DNA of 55,658 nucleotides, taken from an uncultured SAR86 cluster bacterium (GTDB lineage: Bacteria; Pseudomonadota; Gammaproteobacteria; Magnimaribacterales; D2472). A program made the position numbers and the translations under genes. The notes beneath the pieces are model-generated. The model was given only the letters and a program-made list of their open reading frames with translations. It made no database searches and was not told the DNA's origin. Where the stretch lies: assembly GCA_902623535.1 (NCBI GenBank), contig CACNUA010000006.1, positions 1 through 55,658 of the forward strand, read 5' to 3'. Every line of letters starts with the position of its first letter. Position 1 is the first letter of the stretch. Positions 36,142 to 43,762 of this stretch are shown here, one piece after another.

Positions 36142-36226
36142 GGGGATGTGGTGGAACTGGTAGACACGCTTGGCTTAGAACCAAGTGCCGCAAGGCGTGG
36201 GGGTTCGACTCCCTCCATCCCTACCA
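36142..36226 (+). tRNA. tRNA-Leu (anticodon UAG)
   Basis: This 85-base class II tRNA has acceptor stem GGGGATG/CATCCCT (with a G-U first pair), D-arm GTGGAACTGGTAGACACGC, anticodon loop CTTAGAA giving UAG, a long variable arm (GTGCCGCAAGGCGT), T-loop TTCGACT, and genomically encoded CCA. It reads CUN leucine codons. Confidence 0.95.
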
Positions 36227-36819: not shown

Positions 36820-36847
36820 TTTACATATTTACAATTTTGCTTATCAT
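36820..36847 (+). promoter_or_regulatory. Candidate arg operon promoter
   Basis: TTTACA (36820-36825), 16 bases, then TATCAT (36842-36847). The predicted transcription start is at or next to the leader-peptide ATG at 36855, so the leader would be translated from a leaderless mRNA. Confidence 0.5.
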
Positions 36848-36854
36848 TAAAAAG

Positions 36855-36899
36855 ATGAATTTCTTTAATCAAATTAATACACGGAGACAGCTAATATAG
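36855..36899 (+). CDS. Putative arginine attenuator leader peptide
   Basis: This 14-codon open frame reads MNFFNQINTRRQLI and then TAG. The tandem arginine codons CGG AGA (36882-36887) sit directly before the first arm of the attenuator hairpins, and the stop codon overlaps the second arm. CGG looks rare in neighbouring genes, which would sharpen sensitivity to charged tRNA-Arg. It lies 68 bases upstream of argF', with a terminator between. There is no Shine-Dalgarno, but the promoter -10 ends 7 bases before the ATG. The call depends on the surrounding RNA architecture rather than on homology. Confidence 0.7.
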   Translation: MNFFNQINTRRQLI

Positions 36900-36950
36900 C
36901 TGGGCTACTTTTTTTGTTAAAGAACCCAGCTGATGCTGGGTTTTTTGTTT
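36888..36950 (+). promoter_or_regulatory. Ribosome-mediated attenuator of the arginine operon
   Basis: Four mutually exclusive arms are visible. Arm 1 (CAGCT, 36888-36892) pairs arm 2 (AGCTG, 36898-36902). Arm 2 (AGCTGGG, 36898-36904) pairs arm 3 (CCCAGCT, 36925-36931) as antiterminator. Arm 3 (AACCCAGC, 36923-36930) pairs arm 4 (GCTGGGTT, 36935-36942) as terminator with a T tail. A ribosome stalled on the Arg codons would cover arm 1 and free arm 2 to pair arm 3. A ribosome at the stop codon would cover arm 2 and let the terminator form. Confidence 0.75.
36923..36950 (+). terminator. Intrinsic terminator of the arg attenuator
   Basis: AACCCAGC-TGAT-GCTGGGTT is an 8-base-pair stem with a 4-base loop, followed by TTTTGTTTT. 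It lies between the leader peptide and argF', so it can only be a conditional terminator. Confidence 0.88.
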
Positions 36951-36966
36951 TTTAGGGTACAAAAAT

Positions 36967-37968
36967 ATGGATGATATCAGACACTTTATTTCGACTAATG
37001 ACTGGAGTAAGAATGACCTGCAAGCAATTATTGATGAAGCTGTAAAACTTAAGGCTTCACCTTTTCAAGCATCCCTTCAGAATAAATCAGTTGCAATGTT
37101 ATTTTTTAACCCATCACTTAGAACTAAGACAAGTTTTGAAGTGGGTATTAGTGAGCTTTCTGGCACCGCTGTTATTTTACAACCTGGTAAGGATGCTTGG
37201 CCTATTGAGTTTGAAGATGGAGTCATTATGGATCAAGATCCTGAGGAGCATGTCAAAGAGGTTGCGCAAGTTCTTTCTGAATACTGCGATTGTATTGCCA
37301 TCAGAGCTTTTCCAAAGTTTATAGACTGGAATATTGACAGGACTGATCACGTAATTAAAAGTTTTGCAAAATATGCATCTGTTCCAGTAATTAATATGGA
37401 AACCATTGAGCATCCTTGTCAGGAATTGGCACACTTGATGACTTTACAGGAAACGTTAGGATCTCTTGAGGGAAAAGATTATTTGCTCACCTGGACTTAT
37501 CATCCCAAACCATTAAATACTGCTGTAGCAAATTCCAGCCTTTTAATTGCAAGTAAGTTTGGAATGAATGTGAAGCTTCTTTGTCCTTCTAAGGATTACT
37601 TGCTGGATAGACGATATCTTGATTATGCTCAAGAGGCCTGCAGCAAAAATAATAAAAGCTTTGAAATTACTCATGATATTAATGCTGGCTATGATGGAGC
37701 CAATATTGTTTATGCAAAAAGCTGGGGGTCTCTAAATTTTTATGGAAATCCAAAAGATGAATTTGAGGTTAGAAAAAAATTTAAACACTTTATCGTAGAT
37801 GAAGAAAAAATGGAGTTAACCAATAATGCTCTTTTTAGTCACTGCTTCCCTTTAAGAAGAAATGTAAAGGCAACAGATGAAGTCATGGATTCTCCTAATT
37901 GCGTAGCCATCCAAGAGGCTGCGAATAGAAAACATGTGCAAAAGTCACTTTTAACAAAAATCTTATGA
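36967..37968 (+). CDS. argF': N-acetylornithine carbamoyltransferase
   Basis: This 333-residue carbamoyltransferase resembles the Xanthomonas enzyme that carbamoylates N-acetyl-L-ornithine rather than ornithine. Signatures are the carbamoyl-phosphate loop FFNPSLRTKTSFE, QPGKDAWPIEF with the substrate-loop Trp, HPCQELAH, the AOTCase-specific TWTYHPKPLNTAVANS, and FSHCFPLRRNVKATDEVMDS. Glu in the DPEEH segment matches the position I recall as distinguishing acetylornithine from succinylornithine enzymes. It is the first structural gene after the attenuator, with an AGGG site 9 bases before the ATG. Confidence 0.93.
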   Translation: MDDIRHFISTNDWSKNDLQAIIDEAVKLKASPFQASLQNKSVAMLFFNPSLRTKTSFEVGISELSGTAVILQPGKDAWPIEFEDGVIMDQDPEEHVKEVAQVLSEYCDCIAIRAFPKFIDWNIDRTDHVIKSFAKYASVPVINMETIEHPCQELAHLMTLQETLGSLEGKDYLLTWTYHPKPLNTAVANSSLLIASKFGMNVKLLCPSKDYLLDRRYLDYAQEACSKNNKSFEITHDINAGYDGANIVYAKSWGSLNFYGNPKDEFEVRKKFKHFIVDEEKMELTNNALFSHCFPLRRNVKATDEVMDSPNCVAIQEAANRKHVQKSLLTKIL

Positions 37969-37970
37969 GG
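37967..37970 (+). promoter_or_regulatory. Shine-Dalgarno GAGG fixing the argG start
   Basis: GAGG overlaps the argF' stop and lies 6 bases before ATG 37977. It favours that start over ATG 37965. Confidence 0.55.
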
Positions 37971-37976
37971 AATTCT

Positions 37977-39164
37977 ATGAAAAAAATAGTTTTAGCATTT
38001 TCGGGAGGCTTAGATACAAGTTTTTGTATCCCTTACCTTATTGAGCAAGGTTATGAAGTGCATACCTTATTTGTCAATACTGGCGGTATTTCAATCAGTG
38101 AGGAAAAACATCTATCCAATAGAGCAATTCAACTTGGTGCCAAAAAGCACAAGAATGTAAATGTTGAAACTAAGCTTTGGGATCAAGTTTTGGTCCCATT
38201 AATTTTTTCAGGTGCACTTTACCAAAATAGATATCCTGTTTTATGTTCGGACAGATATTTAATAGTTAGTGAGTCCATGAAATTATGTAAAAAGCTTAAC
38301 ACTAAATATATTGCTCATGGGTGTACTGGCATGGGAAATGATCAGGTAAGGTTTGATACCTCAATAAATGCCTTAGGCTCATTCAATATCATTACTCCAA
38401 TCAGAGATATTCAAAATATTACTGATAATGTCAGGGACTATGAAATTAATTATCTGAAGCAAAAAGGGATTAGCGTCTCAAGCCTACATAAGAAATACAG
38501 CATCAATGAAAATCTAATGGGAGCAACTATTTCTGGATCAGAGATTGATGTCTGGAAGGCTCCAAAAGCAGAGAGTTATGTCTTATGTAACTTACCTGAA
38601 GATTATCCTAAGAGAACGAAAAAGATTTCAATTAGATTTGATAAAGGAAAGCCTGTAGCCATTAACGGTTCAAAAGTAAAAGGACCTGAGTTGCTCCGCC
38701 ACCTAAATCAAATAGGGGGTAAATACGGCATTGGAAGGAGTGTTTTTACCAGCGATACCATCATAGGATTAAAGGGCAGATTTGTCTTTGAAGCGCCAGG
38801 AATTTCTATTTTAATGACTGCGCACAGAGCTCTAGAGGAAAGTGTTCTTACGGATAAACAGAATCACTTTAAGTCAATGGCTGGACAAGAATGGGTAAAC
38901 CTTGTCTATCGTGGTTTCTTTTTTGACCCGCAGCGAGAAGATCTTGAAGCATACCTAAACTCATCGCAAACAAAAGTAACCGGAGATGTAATTATTCAAC
39001 TTGAGCCAGGTAAAGCTGAAGCAATTGCAGTTGATTCAAAAAATATTCTTATTAGTGCAGATGGATCTTATGCTCAGTCAGCTGAATGGTCAGATGATGA
39101 ATCCAAGGGATTCATTAAACTTTTAGGTCAAAGTACTTCTACTTGGGCAAAACTTCATAAATAA
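37977..39164 (+). CDS. argG: Argininosuccinate synthase
   Basis: This 395-residue enzyme condenses citrulline and aspartate using ATP. The P-loop-like AFSGGLDTS lies near residues 6-14, and HGCTGMGNDQVRFD carries the citrulline and ATP contacts. The ATG at 37977 is preferred because it has a GAGG site and gives the canonical MKKIVLAFSGGLDTS start; the ATG at 37965, which overlaps the argF' stop, would add four residues. It follows argF' as in Xanthomonas-type clusters. Confidence 0.95.
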   Translation: MKKIVLAFSGGLDTSFCIPYLIEQGYEVHTLFVNTGGISISEEKHLSNRAIQLGAKKHKNVNVETKLWDQVLVPLIFSGALYQNRYPVLCSDRYLIVSESMKLCKKLNTKYIAHGCTGMGNDQVRFDTSINALGSFNIITPIRDIQNITDNVRDYEINYLKQKGISVSSLHKKYSINENLMGATISGSEIDVWKAPKAESYVLCNLPEDYPKRTKKISIRFDKGKPVAINGSKVKGPELLRHLNQIGGKYGIGRSVFTSDTIIGLKGRFVFEAPGISILMTAHRALEESVLTDKQNHFKSMAGQEWVNLVYRGFFFDPQREDLEAYLNSSQTKVTGDVIIQLEPGKAEAIAVDSKNILISADGSYAQSAEWSDDESKGFIKLLGQSTSTWAKLHK

Positions 39165-39167
39165 CTC

Positions 39168-40232
39168 ATGAAAGAGCTATTTAATTCAGCTATCAATCAT
39201 CTTGAACAATTGGTTTCATTTGATACCTCAAATCCTCCAAGGGCAATTTCAGAATCCGGATTGTTGGATTATTTGGAATCTATAGCTGGTCACAATTTAT
39301 CCATAACTGATCATGGTAATGGTTCTTTTAATTGCTTAATCCAGCAAGGTAATCCAAAGCATTTAATTAATGTTCATTTAGATACCGTTCCAGCAGGAGA
39401 TGGTTGGGAAACAGATCCTTTTAAATTACACATAGACAATGATGTTGTTCATGGACTCGGAGCATGTGATATTAAGGGAGCTGCAGCAGCACTTTTATCA
39501 TTGATTGAATCCTATGATTCTGAGTATGCGATTTTATTTAGCACAGATGAGGAAGCAGGCAATAGTACTTGCATCAAGAAGTTCTTAGAAGTAGATCATC
39601 CTTTCGAAGGCATTATAGTCGCAGAGCCAACAAACAATCTTGCGGTTACATGCCACAGAGGAATCTTTACTGGTACAAAAAAATTTAAGGGTAAAGCTGG
39701 ACATAGTTCAGAGAAACGAGGCCTTAAAGACAGTGCCATCCATAAGCTGGTACATTGGTCAGAAAAAGCATTAAAAGTTGCCGAAGATCACACAGAAACG
39801 TCTTATGAAAACCTTCATGGCCTAGCTTTTAATCTTGGTCATATCAACGGCGGTATCAAACCCAATATCATTGCTGAATCTGCAGAATTGAGACTCGGCT
39901 TAAGACCATTGCCAAATCAGGACATCAGTGAGTTAGTGGCTGAGTTAGGTTTAAGTGATTCCAATGAGGAGGAGTTTATTCAAGGGTTTTCAGGCCCCAG
40001 TCTGCCAGCACAAGGATCAAGCAATGATCTAAAGGCCTTCGCAAACAAACTAAATTTGTCATTATCATCTCCTGTAAATTTTTGGACTGAAGCATCTTTG
40101 TTCAACGAAGCCGGCTATCCTGCGATCGTTATAGGACCAGGAAATATTGAAAATGCACATCAAGCAAATGAATTTATCCATTTGAGTCAGATTAAGGAAT
40201 CAATTGAAATATATAAGGGGCTTTTGAAATGA
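39168..40232 (+). CDS. argE': N-acetylcitrulline deacetylase (ArgE-like, M20)
   Basis: This 354-residue M20 zinc peptidase-fold enzyme has metal-site motifs NVHLDTVPAG, GACDIKGAAAA and STDEEAG. Segments such as LVSFDTSNPPRAI, GPSLPAQGS and FWTEASLF match the acetylcitrulline deacetylase described in Xanthomonas more closely than classical ArgE. It would convert N-acetylcitrulline to citrulline for ArgG. It is 3 bases after argG and overlaps argBA by 4. Confidence 0.9.
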   Translation: MKELFNSAINHLEQLVSFDTSNPPRAISESGLLDYLESIAGHNLSITDHGNGSFNCLIQQGNPKHLINVHLDTVPAGDGWETDPFKLHIDNDVVHGLGACDIKGAAAALLSLIESYDSEYAILFSTDEEAGNSTCIKKFLEVDHPFEGIIVAEPTNNLAVTCHRGIFTGTKKFKGKAGHSSEKRGLKDSAIHKLVHWSEKALKVAEDHTETSYENLHGLAFNLGHINGGIKPNIIAESAELRLGLRPLPNQDISELVAELGLSDSNEEEFIQGFSGPSLPAQGSSNDLKAFANKLNLSLSSPVNFWTEASLFNEAGYPAIVIGPGNIENAHQANEFIHLSQIKESIEIYKGLLK

Positions 40233-41542
40233 CACAAGCCTCAAATATCTTTATCAAAGATACTATCATTAAACTTTTAACTGCAATTGGGTCAGAAAAA
40301 GAAATCAAAAAATATATAAATAAGTTCTCTTCAACAGAACAACAATTTGCTGTTATAAAAGTTGGTGGCGCGGTTGTTGAAGAAGATCTTGATAATCTTA
40401 TTTCTTCAGTAGTCTTTTTAAATCAAGTTGGGTTAAGACCGATTATTATTCATGGGGGAGGGCCTGGGCTTTCCAAGGAACTCGATGCAAAGAAAATTGA
40501 TTTTTCATTTATTGATGGTCAAAGAGTTACATCTGAAGCAGTCAGGGATGTAGCAATCAATGTCTTCGGTGATATTAACTCTTTATTGGTCAGACGTTTA
40601 AACGAACAAGGAGCATTGGCAATGGGTTTTAAAGAGGAAATATTTAAATCTGAAAAAAAATCAGAAGAACTTGGCTATGTTGGAGAAATTAAGAAAGTAA
40701 ATATTAAGCCTATTAATGAAGCTATTAAGGATGGCTTTATTCCAGTGATTTCACCGTTAGGAATTACTGAAACTAATGAGGTGGTTAATATCAATGCAGA
40801 TGTTGCCACAATAAACCTTGTTGAGGAAATTAAGCCCTATAAAGTTGTATTTTTATCTCAAGTTGGAGGAATCTATGACAATAATGAATCCTTAATACAA
40901 TCGATTAACCTTGATCTAGAGTATGAAGAAATGATGAATGCTGATTGGCTGCATTCAGGAATGCAATTAAAACTAAAACAGATTAAGGAGTTATTGGATT
41001 TATTGCCTCGATCATCATCAGTATCAATTACAAAACCTATTGACCTGCCCAAAGAATTATTTACTGACTCTGGATCAGGGACACTTATTAAACGTGGGCA
41101 CGGCATAGATATTTTTGAGTCCAAAGATCAGGACATTCAGAAAAAATTTTTTAGTATCATAGAAAGTTCATTTAATGGCATATTGAATAAATCTTTTTTT
41201 AATGACGGCGATTACAAAATTTTTTTGACGACCTGCGAACGAGCAGCAATTGCAGTTTCTATGGAATACAAAGTTCCATACATGGATAAATTTGGTGTTA
41301 TTGCTGAAGCTAAAGGTGAAGGAATTGGCTCCGCAATTTTTCATGAAATGAAAAAAGAATTTCCCGAGATTTTTTGGCGCTCTAAATCAAATAATCCAAT
41401 CAATAAATTCTACCTATCCATGGCAGACGGATATCAAAAAACAGGGGAGTGGGATATTTTCTGGATGGGAATTAATGACTACAGCAAATTGAATGAGTGT
41501 ATTAATTTCGCAGTATCAAAACAGCAAACTATCAGTTATTAA
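40229..41542 (+). CDS. argBA: Bifunctional N-acetylglutamate synthase/kinase
   Basis: This 437-residue fusion has an amino-acid-kinase domain (about 30-285; KVGGAVVE, IIHGGGPGLS, NINADVAT) and a C-terminal GNAT acetyltransferase domain (about 290-437; AAIAVSMEYKVPYMDKFGV, AKGEGIGSAIF). The same fusion in Xanthomonas makes and phosphorylates N-acetylglutamate, the first two steps of the pathway. Arginine feedback inhibition is likely for this family. ATGA overlap with the deacetylase gene. GSGTLIKRGHGI bridges the domains. Confidence 0.92.
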   Translation: MTQASNIFIKDTIIKLLTAIGSEKEIKKYINKFSSTEQQFAVIKVGGAVVEEDLDNLISSVVFLNQVGLRPIIIHGGGPGLSKELDAKKIDFSFIDGQRVTSEAVRDVAINVFGDINSLLVRRLNEQGALAMGFKEEIFKSEKKSEELGYVGEIKKVNIKPINEAIKDGFIPVISPLGITETNEVVNINADVATINLVEEIKPYKVVFLSQVGGIYDNNESLIQSINLDLEYEEMMNADWLHSGMQLKLKQIKELLDLLPRSSSVSITKPIDLPKELFTDSGSGTLIKRGHGIDIFESKDQDIQKKFFSIIESSFNGILNKSFFNDGDYKIFLTTCERAAIAVSMEYKVPYMDKFGVIAEAKGEGIGSAIFHEMKKEFPEIFWRSKSNNPINKFYLSMADGYQKTGEWDIFWMGINDYSKLNECINFAVSKQQTISY

Positions 41543-41543
41543 C

Positions 41544-42467
41544 ATGTCAAAGAAAATTAGCATCATTGGAGGAAGAGGATTTACTGGCCAAGAGCTTATC
41601 AAGCTTATTGATTCTCATCCGCAATTTGAACTTGCACAAGCATTTTCATCATCAGTGGCAGGCGATGAAATCATGATCGATGAACGCAAGCTTAAAAAAA
41701 CTTATGCCTCGCTTGATGAAGATATAGAGTTTGTTGAAGAAGATGCGATTATTTTGGCTCTTCCAAATAATGAAGCCGCCAAATGGGCTGGTAAGATATC
41801 TAAAGAAAAATCTCAAGCTATTATTCTTGATTTGAGTGCAGATCATCGTTTTGATGATGAATGGCATTACAGTGTTCCCGAGTTAACCGAGACCATTGTA
41901 AGAAATAAGATAAGCAATCCAGGTTGCTATGCAACAGCAATGCAATTAATGCTTGCACCCATAAATAACATAATTGATGGAGAGGTGAATTTTTTTGGGA
42001 TTTCTGGATACAGCGGAGCGGGTGCAACTCCAAATGATAGAAATGATCCTGATAAATTAAAAAATAATATTATTCCCTATTCACTTAATAATCATATTCA
42101 TGAAAGAGAGGTAAGTTTTCATATGCAAAGGGAAATAAACTTTATGCCCCATGTAGCAAATTTCTTTAGAGGAATTTTAATCACTGGAAATTTTTCTTTA
42201 AAGAGCCAATGTTCTTTAGAAGAGACTAGAAATATCTTTGATGATTTTTATGATGAGCATTCTTTTATAGCTATTAAAGAAGAATTCCCCTCAATATCTG
42301 AGGTTATCAACACACCCAATGCCATTATTGGTGGATTTAATATTGATGAATCAAAAAAGCGATTAAGCTTTTGTTGCTCAATTGATAATCTACTAAAAGG
42401 AGCAGCATCACAAGCCATACAAAATTTAAATAATGCAATGAATTTTGATGAAGGGTTGGGGCTATAG
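41544..42467 (+). CDS. argC: N-acetyl-gamma-glutamyl-phosphate reductase
   Basis: This 307-residue NADPH-dependent reductase makes N-acetylglutamate semialdehyde. The dinucleotide-binding GGRGFTGQE is at the N-terminus, and catalytic Cys128 lies in SNPGCYATAMQL. A frame extension to 41493 exists, but the ATG at 41544 starts the family sequence (MSKKISIIGGRG) one base after the argBA stop. The next enzyme, ArgD, is not encoded in the window. Confidence 0.93.
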   Translation: MSKKISIIGGRGFTGQELIKLIDSHPQFELAQAFSSSVAGDEIMIDERKLKKTYASLDEDIEFVEEDAIILALPNNEAAKWAGKISKEKSQAIILDLSADHRFDDEWHYSVPELTETIVRNKISNPGCYATAMQLMLAPINNIIDGEVNFFGISGYSGAGATPNDRNDPDKLKNNIIPYSLNNHIHEREVSFHMQREINFMPHVANFFRGILITGNFSLKSQCSLEETRNIFDDFYDEHSFIAIKEEFPSISEVINTPNAIIGGFNIDESKKRLSFCCSIDNLLKGAASQAIQNLNNAMNFDEGLGL

Positions 42468-42481
42468 AAAGGATAGAAACT

Positions 42482-43762
42482 ATGAAAATCTGGAATTCAA
42501 AGAATCAAAAAATAGATCAAAGAGTAGATACTTTTTTAAGTGGTGAAGATATAGATCTTGATAATGAGATATTTATATTTGATGTAGATGCATCCATTGC
42601 GCACACTGAAGAATTACTTGCGATAAAACTACTTACTGGGAATGAGGCTTCTTTGTTAAAAAGAGAGCTTAAGAAAATTAAAAAAGATTTTTTATCTGGC
42701 ATGCTTGCTCTTAATAAAAAATTTGAAGACTGTCACTCGGCTATTGAATATCTATTAATCAAGGAGCTTGGAGATGTTGGCAAGAAGATACATACCGGAA
42801 GAAGTAGAAATGATCAGGTACTGGTTGCCATTAGACTTTATCAACAACACAATTTAAAAATTATCAGGAAGTTAGTGCTAAAGCTCGCGAAAGAACTTTT
42901 AAGCAAGTCAAAGCAAAATGAATATTTACCAATGCCTGGTTATACCCATCTACAAAGAGCAATGCCATCAACATGGGGGTTATGGTTTTCTTCTTATGTA
43001 GAAGCATTTTTAGATGATGTTGAGTTATTGGATGCAATTTCAGATTGGATTAATATCAATCCCCTTGGAACAGCAGCAGGCTATGGTATTAATTTACCTA
43101 TTAAAAGAGAGCTTTCAACCAAGAAGCTAGGCTTCAAAAGACCTCAAGTAAATGCTTTGTATGTTCAAAATAGCAGAGGCAAAATGGATTTAGAAATTTT
43201 GGGTGCCTTAAAGCAACCTTTCTTGGATTTAAGAAAATTATCATGGGATCTGAGCTTATTTACTTCAACTGAATTTAACTTAATTAAGATTGGTAAGGAA
43301 TTTGCAACTGGGTCTTCTATTATGCCTAATAAGTCAAACCCCGATACCGTAGAAATAATGAGAGCAAATTATGCAAAACTAGCAGGCTATTATGCTGAAA
43401 TTGAGAACTTAATTTCACTTCCTAGCGGCTATCATAGGGATTTGCAGATATCTAAAGGAGCAATCATTAATGCATTTAATCTATGCGAATCCTCATTTTC
43501 TTTAGCATCTGCATTAATCAAATCATTAAAAATCAATAAAAAGAGAGCTGCAGAGATGATTGACTCTGATATGCAAATGACTGATCAGGTAAATGGGCTT
43601 GTTCAGCAAGGCATACCTTTTAGAGATGCTTATAGGTCTGTAAAGAATGAACCTAACAAGCATAAAAGTTTGTCTTCAAAAACAGATGCTTCATCGGTTG
43701 GGTCTGCAAATAACTTGAAGTTAAATCTCCTATCTTTAAGACTAAAAAAGTTAGCAAAATAA
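42482..43762 (+). CDS. argH: Argininosuccinate lyase
   Basis: This 426-residue fumarase/aspartase-superfamily enzyme releases arginine and fumarate. HTGRSRNDQV is near residue 102, TPLG-type contacts appear as INPLGTAAGYG, and the signature loop GSSIMPNKSNPD is near 277-288 with the catalytic Ser. It is the last gene of the arg operon, with AAAGGA before the ATG. The C-terminus is a little shorter than in E. coli. No terminator is visible before the next gene. Confidence 0.94.
   Translation: MKIWNSKNQKIDQRVDTFLSGEDIDLDNEIFIFDVDASIAHTEELLAIKLLTGNEASLLKRELKKIKKDFLSGMLALNKKFEDCHSAIEYLLIKELGDVGKKIHTGRSRNDQVLVAIRLYQQHNLKIIRKLVLKLAKELLSKSKQNEYLPMPGYTHLQRAMPSTWGLWFSSYVEAFLDDVELLDAISDWININPLGTAAGYGINLPIKRELSTKKLGFKRPQVNALYVQNSRGKMDLEILGALKQPFLDLRKLSWDLSLFTSTEFNLIKIGKEFATGSSIMPNKSNPDTVEIMRANYAKLAGYYAEIENLISLPSGYHRDLQISKGAIINAFNLCESSFSLASALIKSLKINKKRAAEMIDSDMQMTDQVNGLVQQGIPFRDAYRSVKNEPNKHKSLSSKTDASSVGSANNLKLNLLSLRLKKLAK

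Follow-up and report, generated by a model that had tools for sequence, protein, structure and literature searches.

The contig CACNUA010000006.1 of the uncultured SAR86 cluster bacterium assembly GCA_902623535.1 (forward strand; this whole stretch of 55,658 nucleotides is referred to here as the window) carries a closely spaced set of arginine biosynthetic genes on a single strand, in the order argF'-argG-argE-argB/A-argC-argH. Directly in front of argF', the gene for N-acetylornithine carbamoyltransferase, lies a short leader with the anatomy of a ribosome-mediated transcription attenuator: an open reading frame (ORF) with two consecutive Arg codons, followed by four arms that can form either an antiterminator or an intrinsic terminator (Table 1). 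The initial annotation of this DNA, made from its letters alone, had described the 14-codon frame, the codons CGG AGA, the four arms and the T-tailed terminator, and each of these elements was recovered exactly, base for base; the mutual complementarity that it had ascribed to arms 1:2, 2:3 and 3:4 was likewise verified in the window sequence.

Table 1. Features of the argF' leader and of the arginine operon in the SAR86 window.
Feature	Position	Strand	Basis and remarks
tRNA-Leu(TAG)	36142..36226	+	ARAGORN; marks the locus in relatives
Promoter TTTACA - 16 nt - TATCAT	36820..36847	+	Promoter scan; TTTAC invariant across 25 rows
Leader ORF, 14 codons and TAG, MNFFNQINTRRQLI	36855..36899	+	ATG 36855-36857, TAG 36897-36899; probably leaderless
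Control codons CGG AGA (codons 10 and 11)	36882..36887	+	
Arm 1, CAGCT	36888..36892	+	Partner of arm 2; pause/protector hairpin 1:2
Arm 2, AGCTGGG	36898..36904	+	Overlaps the stop codon; antiterminator 2:3
Arm 3, AACCCAGCT	36923..36931	+	Common to antiterminator and terminator
Arm 4, GCTGGGTT (36935-36942), and T-rich tail	36935..36953	+	Intrinsic terminator 3:4
argF', N-acetylornithine carbamoyltransferase	36967..37968	+	NCBIfam NF003384, above cut-off
argG, argininosuccinate synthase	37965..39164	+	TIGR00032, above cut-off
argE-type acetylornithine deacetylase	39168..40232	+	NF006439, above cut-off
Acetylglutamate kinase fused to an N-acetylglutamate synthase (NAT) domain	40229..41542	+	Domain searches
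argC	41493..42467	+	TIGR01850, above cut-off
argH	42482..43762	+	TIGR00838, above cut-off

When folded in isolation, hairpins 1:2, 2:3 and 3:4 have predicted free energies of -6.4, -13.3 and -16.2 kcal/mol, with z-scores against dinucleotide shuffles of -2.2, -3.6 and -5.7, respectively, and of -4.7 for the 70-nt region as a whole. Hairpin 1:2 is clear in the window and, as read by eye, weak or imperfect in several relatives. A terminator scan reported 13 pairs at 36918-36947; the argF' ATG lies 20 nt past the end of the first T-run, and a second T-run extends to 36953. Rfam returned six matches up to an E-value of 1 for the window region, all of them below the gathering threshold, and no T-box or riboswitch. 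The -10 box ends 7 nt 5' of the leader ATG, which places the expected transcription start at approximately this ATG. Because the promoter scan of the window gave three sigma70-like matches where 2.6 are expected by chance, the promoter call rests on conservation in relatives, and it is the same conservation that lifts the window feature above chance. Across 39 rows, drawn from 25 argF' leaders and 15 leaders of a TonB-dependent receptor gene considered below (L065 was left out, L241 missed and a spurious second L062 row not counted), the start position, set at 14 codons upstream of the stop, is found 6-9 nt past the best -10 hexamer (defined as the best match 4-14 nt from the start, with ties resolved to 7 nt). 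As this is where transcription itself should begin, we infer from these consensus promoters that the SAR86 leader ORF is probably leaderless.

Forty of the 41 loci from named relatives could be read (L066, with a truncated argF', was left out). Leader and terminator are present in 25 of them, including L065, which was read by eye; the 15 without a leader all belong to genus g5, as established by matched contig coordinates. A covariance model (R1), trained on 19 SAR86 leaders and run over 203 genomes of the order, returned 50 matches with E<1e-8, of which 28 lie before argF', 21 before the TonB receptor and one is an orphan; the 19 training rows match by construction. Not included in the model alignment were L064, the near-identical L053, L054, L055, L056 and L070, and L065, which is not clearly SAR86. 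By coordinates, 49 of the 50 strong matches are positioned directly 5' of argF' or the receptor gene in the same orientation. Matches weaker than 1e-6 were numerous, fell on both strands and resemble ordinary terminators; the RNAalifold structure of R1 contains the terminator alone, which is the most conserved element of the SAR86 leader. The initial annotation would have been refuted by relatives that keep the terminator and lose the short frame or its Arg codons. Within the family this refutation fails: among the 47 genomes with a strong argF' match, 19 of which belong to g5, all 28 outside that genus possess the leader. The orphan leader (L246, genome G044) looks intact and is of the argF' type, and the sequence read downstream of it contains no argF'. 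Two related SAR86 genomes in which the leader is retained have a single in-frame TAA in argG (G087:C2:200526-201716 and G090:C51:14646-15836).

The leader peptides of SAR86 vary in sequence (MNNYLTQERRVSAL, MINTNTRLRRVPAL, MIKLKTQLRRVSAI, MNILNTQRRRDMVE, MKFIDNSIIRRQLI), and the position of their arginine does not. In a survey of 46 leaders (25 from argF' and 21 from receptor loci, without L065 and with L241, whose stop is TAA, read by eye), an Arg codon occupies the fifth position before the stop (-5) in 45 and position -4 in L241. CGG fills the -5 position in 43 of these 45, AGG in L062 and AGA in L313, and in 39 of the 45 an ATG or GTG precedes the stop by exactly 14 codons. The invariant unit, judged by sequence, is thus one Arg codon at -5, mostly as part of a pair. 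CGG contributes 11 of 587 Arg codons in the window genes (1.9%) and 30 of 1972 in relatives (1.5%), and 24 of 56 in the argF' leaders. In G052, a genome on one contig and 95% complete, the Arg anticodons among 34 tRNA matches are TCT, TCG, ACG and CCT; a tRNA-Arg(CCG) was not found among these matches. CGG should therefore be read by wobble, perhaps slowly.

Close relatives of argF' (about 60% identity) were also found in a class sample of 369 genomes, namely in families f16 (three) and f182 (one); the argF matches L076 (39%) and L077 (35% identity) from this sample are positioned directly 3' of another ORF and have no leader. In the order of genome G214, which we label Xanthomonas-type on the strength of the Rfam Xoo5 matches described below, an argF' match was obtained in 130 of the 151 genomes sampled. 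We pooled 150 loci, 124 from this order and 26 from the SAR86 group (24 SAR86 relatives, the window and L065); excluded from the 124 were G577, G585, G630 and G637 (f193) and G619 and G626 (truncated or split), and one of those retained, L173, is a 67-nt fragment. A terminator lies upstream in 137 of the 150 loci. In 130 of these 137, an Arg-rich ORF, with two or more Arg in a stretch of five codons, has its stop close to the antiterminator arm, compared with a mean of 50 and a maximum of 60 in 60 shuffles; at least three Arg within five codons are present in 113, compared with a mean of 10.8 and a maximum of 16. Terminator and ORF occur together at every locus of f16 (25), f182 (24), f190 (12), f184 (3), f186 (3), f188 (2) and f192 (1). 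All 22 loci of f189 have the terminator and 21 both elements; six of the eight f185 loci have both, and the other two neither a terminator nor the combination. In the SAR86 group all 26 have the terminator and 23 both elements, the three that fall short of two Arg being L032, L034 and L065, in the last of which the arm was misplaced. The f191 loci in which no terminator was found upstream of argF' are L157, L166, L168, L169, L175, L176, L177, L179, L181 and L193. In the loci with both elements, the leader stop lies at or near arm 2, and the last Arg codon of the densest cluster is 9-19 nt from arm 2 in 120 of 130, which matches the distance shielded by a stalled ribosome. One might suppose that the leader is a plain promoter-proximal terminator with constant read-through, accompanied by a short frame that arose by chance, and the terminator is indeed the most conserved element. 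We regard this as the least credible of the explanations considered, given the excess of ORFs with at least three Arg (113 of 137 against 10.8 in shuffles), the Arg codon at -5 in 45 of 46 SAR86 leaders and an alternative pairing that is kept through changes of the arms.

These arm changes are seen across the families of the Xanthomonas-type order. When arm 2 is defined uniformly as the six bases before the leader stop, GCTGGG is accompanied in the terminator core by CCCAGC in 21 loci and by CCCGGC in one, and GCCGGG by CCCGGC in 23 and by CCCAGC in none (45 loci of f16 and f182); this definition is inapplicable in 13 further loci of f16, f182, f184 and f185, where the stop lies elsewhere and another hexamer is found at this position. 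Over all 137 loci, the pairing score of arms with their own partners is 19.47, compared with 17.3 (maximum 17.82) in 200 permutations. By a coarser measure, plain word counts, of 86 loci with CCCAGC, 54 contain GCTGGG and seven GCCGGG, and of 44 loci with CCCGGC, 23 contain GCCGGG and six GCTGGG. A version with CCAGG and CCTGG in f190 pairs exactly in four of five loci and through a G-U pair in one, and in L108 (f189) GGTCGG stands with CCCGAC. In seven further f190 loci (L082, L094, L100, L103, L110, L116, L128), TCTTTGG near the stop pairs with CCAAAGA in the terminator loop and not with the stem arm. Collectively, these are about four separate arm versions, not tens of events, and the changes partly reflect common descent.

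The leader peptides of the four families f16, f182, f184 and f185 raise the question of whether the peptide itself is the sensor. MTSRARR is kept in 59 of their 60 loci, the exception being the 67-nt fragment, and the codons underneath it change synonymously (57 loci tabulated, since the search pattern also required the residues preceding MTSRARR). Such conservation at the protein level, as well as the occurrence of leaders with a single Arg codon, would suit a nascent-peptide arrest, in which the leader peptide, jointly with a metabolite such as arginine, would halt the ribosome from inside its tunnel; ornithine acts in this way with the SpeFL peptide. However, the leader peptides of other families (...VVVRRRRP..MELFG, ...RRLRRPGFH, ...LRRRRRSSQRRAG) have little in common except their Arg clusters, the SAR86 peptides of 14 residues are too short to fill the tunnel, and biosynthetic genes need to be induced by the absence of arginine, not by its presence. 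We therefore consider arrest by the nascent peptide unlikely.

Arginine biosynthesis is usually presented as ArgR-repressed, in contrast to leader-peptide attenuation. An argR search, which the initial annotation had proposed as a check on its reading, yielded no ArgR in the window's own genome (71% complete) and none above the cut-off of PF01316 in 202 genomes of the SAR86 order, where two weak matches were seen. In the Xanthomonas-type order, ArgR scores above the cut-off in eight of 151 genomes, all of family f193, nine genomes of which are in the argF' match list. The argF matches of f193 are 36-39% identical, and at all four f193 loci read the leader is absent and argF starts 3-6 nt after the preceding ORF.

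Part of the leader in the Xanthomonas-type order has already been catalogued under another name. The Rfam family RF02242 ('Xanthomonadaceae sRNA Xoo5') covers the argF' leader in L075 (126 bits, E 1.2e-27) and L074 (119 bits) and scores 31 bits, below its gathering threshold of 50, in L072; it reaches the threshold upstream of argF' in eight of 20 further loci, all eight among the nine f16 loci. The SAR86 version went undetected, RF02242 not being among the window-region matches up to an E-value of 1. The Xoo5-covered leader region was noted for L072, L073, L074, L075, L080, L088, L092, L096, L098, L099 and L101. In three loci the 5' end of the model lies 2 nt before the leader ATG, and the model stops short of the terminator. 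According to the accessible part of the original report, Xoo5 was mapped by 5' RACE as an RNA of 124 nt, which is also the length of the Rfam model, was detected on Northern blots at about 130 and 100 nt, the bands changing with growth phase, and is located between PXO_00354 and PXO_00353, directly 5' of the latter (PMC3039613). Its proteomics table lists PXO_00353 as N-acetylornithine carbamoyltransferase and PXO_00352 as argininosuccinate synthase, and the word 'arginine' occurs 0 times in the main text (PMC3039613). We read Xoo5 as the terminated argF' leader, with the qualification that the terminated RNA of L075, at about 155 nt, would be longer than 124-130 nt. A different function, that of a small RNA acting in trans or of a small protein in its own right, would follow the current Rfam label for the Xanthomonas version. 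In the part of the report that we could consult, Xoo5 was cloned and seen as a short RNA on Northern blots (PMC3039613), and terminated leaders can accumulate; however, 49 of the 50 strong SAR86 matches lie directly before argF' or the receptor gene in the same orientation, changes in the arms are matched in the terminator, and the stop is at or near arm 2. Either function is thus very improbable.

The leader combines an ORF with cognate codons, mutually exclusive antiterminator and terminator pairings and a spacing that would free or cover arm 2. On the basis of this anatomy, its conservation, the codon constraint, the cross-family arm covariation, the ribosome-compatible spacing and the lack of ArgR, we conclude that it is very probably a ribosome-mediated transcription attenuator that adjusts expression of the arginine operon to the availability of charged tRNA-Arg and, as part of this same reading, stands in for ArgR. 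Transcription would start approximately at the leader ATG, so that a ribosome would load directly on the 5' end of the RNA. When Arg-tRNA is plentiful, the ribosome would reach the TAG and cover arm 2, allowing 3:4 to pair and transcription to stop before argF'. When Arg-tRNA is scarce, it would wait at CGG (AGA) and cover arm 1 only; 2:3 would then pair before arm 4 is made, no terminator would form and the operon would be transcribed. If the leader is left untranslated, 1:2 would form and then the terminator. In this scheme, we infer translation of the ORF, ribosome stalling, the kinetic choice of 2:3 and the arginine response. The coupling of operon transcription to Arg-tRNA charging, which the initial annotation had already proposed, is accordingly backed as far as anatomy, conservation and the lack of ArgR go, and the response to arginine stays a prediction.

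Several observations weigh against the attenuator. In equilibrium folds with arm 1 masked, the terminator still forms (-20.1 kcal/mol versus -13.3 kcal/mol for 2:3). Since the equilibrium favours the terminator, as it commonly does in attenuators, the choice of 2:3 must be kinetic. The initial annotation had proposed testing the short frame for conserved Arg codons: an Arg codon occupies the same position in each of the 25 argF' leaders read, and the tandem pair is not kept in the congeners L032 and L034, which have the single Arg codon of CGG GGT (Arg-Gly); 14 of the 20 receptor leaders tabulated also have only one. The covariation of the arms that it had suggested looking for was found in the wider order; inside SAR86 it was sought and none was seen, because the arms are nearly invariant. 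In addition, the switch of arms between f16 and f182 may be one inherited double change. The counts of Arg-rich ORFs derive from the frame with the most Arg near arm 2, a choice that inflates count and null alike, and the single f187 locus lacks the terminator, as do ten of the 23 f191 loci, which leaves 13 with a terminator and ten with both elements. The terminator scan was positive in L075 and not on the + strand of L072 and L074, probably as a long A/T-ended stem consumes the T-run there. Furthermore, the residues of MTSRARR other than Arg are conserved as well, and stalling at codons alone would not require this. Finally, genus g5 has argF' without this leader at all 15 named loci read, with a strong R1 match in none of its 19 genomes. 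Masked-ribosome equilibrium folding was discarded as a predictor of read-through; by itself it predicts none.

In genus g5, no tRNA-Leu lies close to either of the two loci tested, and the genes upstream of argF' are different ones; the g5 operon therefore probably sits elsewhere in the genome. Another ORF, of about 37-42 codons, was observed at the g5 loci L037, L038, L042, L043, L046, L049, L068 and L020. It has Arg-rich tails (RRRRRSI, RRLRSI or PKLRSL before the stop), ends about 25-38 nt before the argF' match and has a promoter resembling TTGCATACT immediately in front of its ATG. The hairpins between the stop of this ORF and argF' were not significant in the six loci folded (z -0.8 to -1.8), so that we propose no mechanism for g5, and no Arg-rich ORF was seen before argF' in L035, L036 and L048. 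At L039, L040, L041, L044, L045, L010 and L011, a gene that we take to be a panD look-alike stands directly upstream of argF'; its product ends in IPTQR(I/L)RS(L/V), as if this C-terminus were taking over the role of the leader.

In genus g8, the leader is found in front of a TonB-dependent receptor gene of about 790 aa in all 21 receptor-bearing genomes (two receptors were checked as PF00593/PF07715), and these receptor leaders have Arg at -5 (-4 in L241) and the same arms as the argF' leaders. Loci of the receptor branch are L319-L338 and L341 (g8), and L234-L245, L248-L250 and L313-L318. Nine receptor loci read outside g8 have no leader of their own. argF' and argG were found in only three g8 genomes (G059, G062, G067). 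Receptor and argF' are mutually exclusive but for one genome: among 106 genomes, argF' occurs in 47, the receptor in 35, both in one (G098) and neither in 25 (Fisher p 1.7e-10, uncorrected for descent; the argF' sample comprised 107 genomes and the receptor sample 106). In the other 34 receptor genomes, many of which are incomplete, argG was not found; they are therefore probably unable to make arginine by that route. Of 19 loci tested for tRNA-Leu(TAG), those with the tRNA upstream are the argF'-type L032, L033, L050 and L063, all seven receptor-leader loci tested, L339 and L340, as in the window; none was found in the stretch examined of L342, L343, L067, L062, L046 and L045. In G098 these elements follow one another as tRNA-Leu, receptor, leader and argF'. 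The simple reading of these sequences would be a transfer of the attenuator from an operon for synthesis to a gene for uptake; alternatively, the receptor leader may be the chance capture of a promoter. We propose, tentatively and somewhat short of calling it probable, that a widespread arginine attenuator replaces ArgR in ArgF'-type gammaproteobacteria and that SAR86 bacteria without arginine synthesis reassigned it to the TonB receptor at the tRNA-Leu locus. A synthesis switch would then have become an uptake switch, and the receptor would be predicted to import arginine or an arginine-bearing substrate, a testable suggestion for the SAR86 TonB receptor. More generally, the data suggest attenuation control where ArgR is missing, from SAR86 in the ocean to Xanthomonas-type species. 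If this is true, a published Rfam sRNA would be reassigned to a cis-acting leader, and the leaders, with several hexamer versions and one loop-pairing version, would offer a natural set for studying antiterminator evolution.

The trp, his, leu and ilv attenuators of enteric bacteria consist of a short ORF containing codons of the amino acid that the operon makes, arms 1-4 and an intrinsic terminator. The SAR86 leader resembles them in each of these respects and in the overlap of the stop codon with arm 2, and differs from them in its amino acid, arginine, in being apparently leaderless, in the rare codon at a fixed place, in the absence of ArgR and in its TonB branch. Leaderless regulatory ORFs are also known from the polycysteine attenuators of mycobacteria, which differ in the amino acid and belong to another phylum. 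In Xanthomonas-type loci, the sequence annotated as the sRNA gene Xoo5 is none other than the argF' leader region. Of published leaders with arginine codons, the closest one found is Salmonella orf34-speF, where, according to the accessible part of the report, two consecutive Arg codons are likewise present and the translation rate senses arginine; it controls polyamine synthesis via Rho, RNase G and translation (PMC6386406), whereas SAR86 has the intrinsic 3:4 terminator. In Pseudomonas aeruginosa, the carA leader similarly encodes a peptide upstream of a gene with an additional role in arginine synthesis, and attenuation has been proposed; in the text available, however, this possible attenuation is ascribed to pyrimidines, arginine control is transcriptional and no Arg-codon mechanism is described (PMC4997734). 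The uORFC-8-2 cysS attenuator of Rhodobacterales, as far as its report was accessible, shares tandem codons for one amino acid and a terminator, and differs in its amino acid, cysteine, in preceding a tRNA-synthetase gene and in its clade (PMC8632094). A leader-peptide attenuator of arginine biosynthesis was not found in the open-licence PMC literature, subscription papers lying outside this search, and a term search showed 'arginine' to be absent from the main text of Naville and Gautheret, 2010 (PMC2965389). Hence, the class of mechanism proposed here is classical; what is new, as far as the open PMC literature shows, is that arginine biosynthesis is its target, that it has spread among ArgF'-type bacteria lacking ArgR, that Xoo5 would be such a leader and that one branch precedes a receptor gene.
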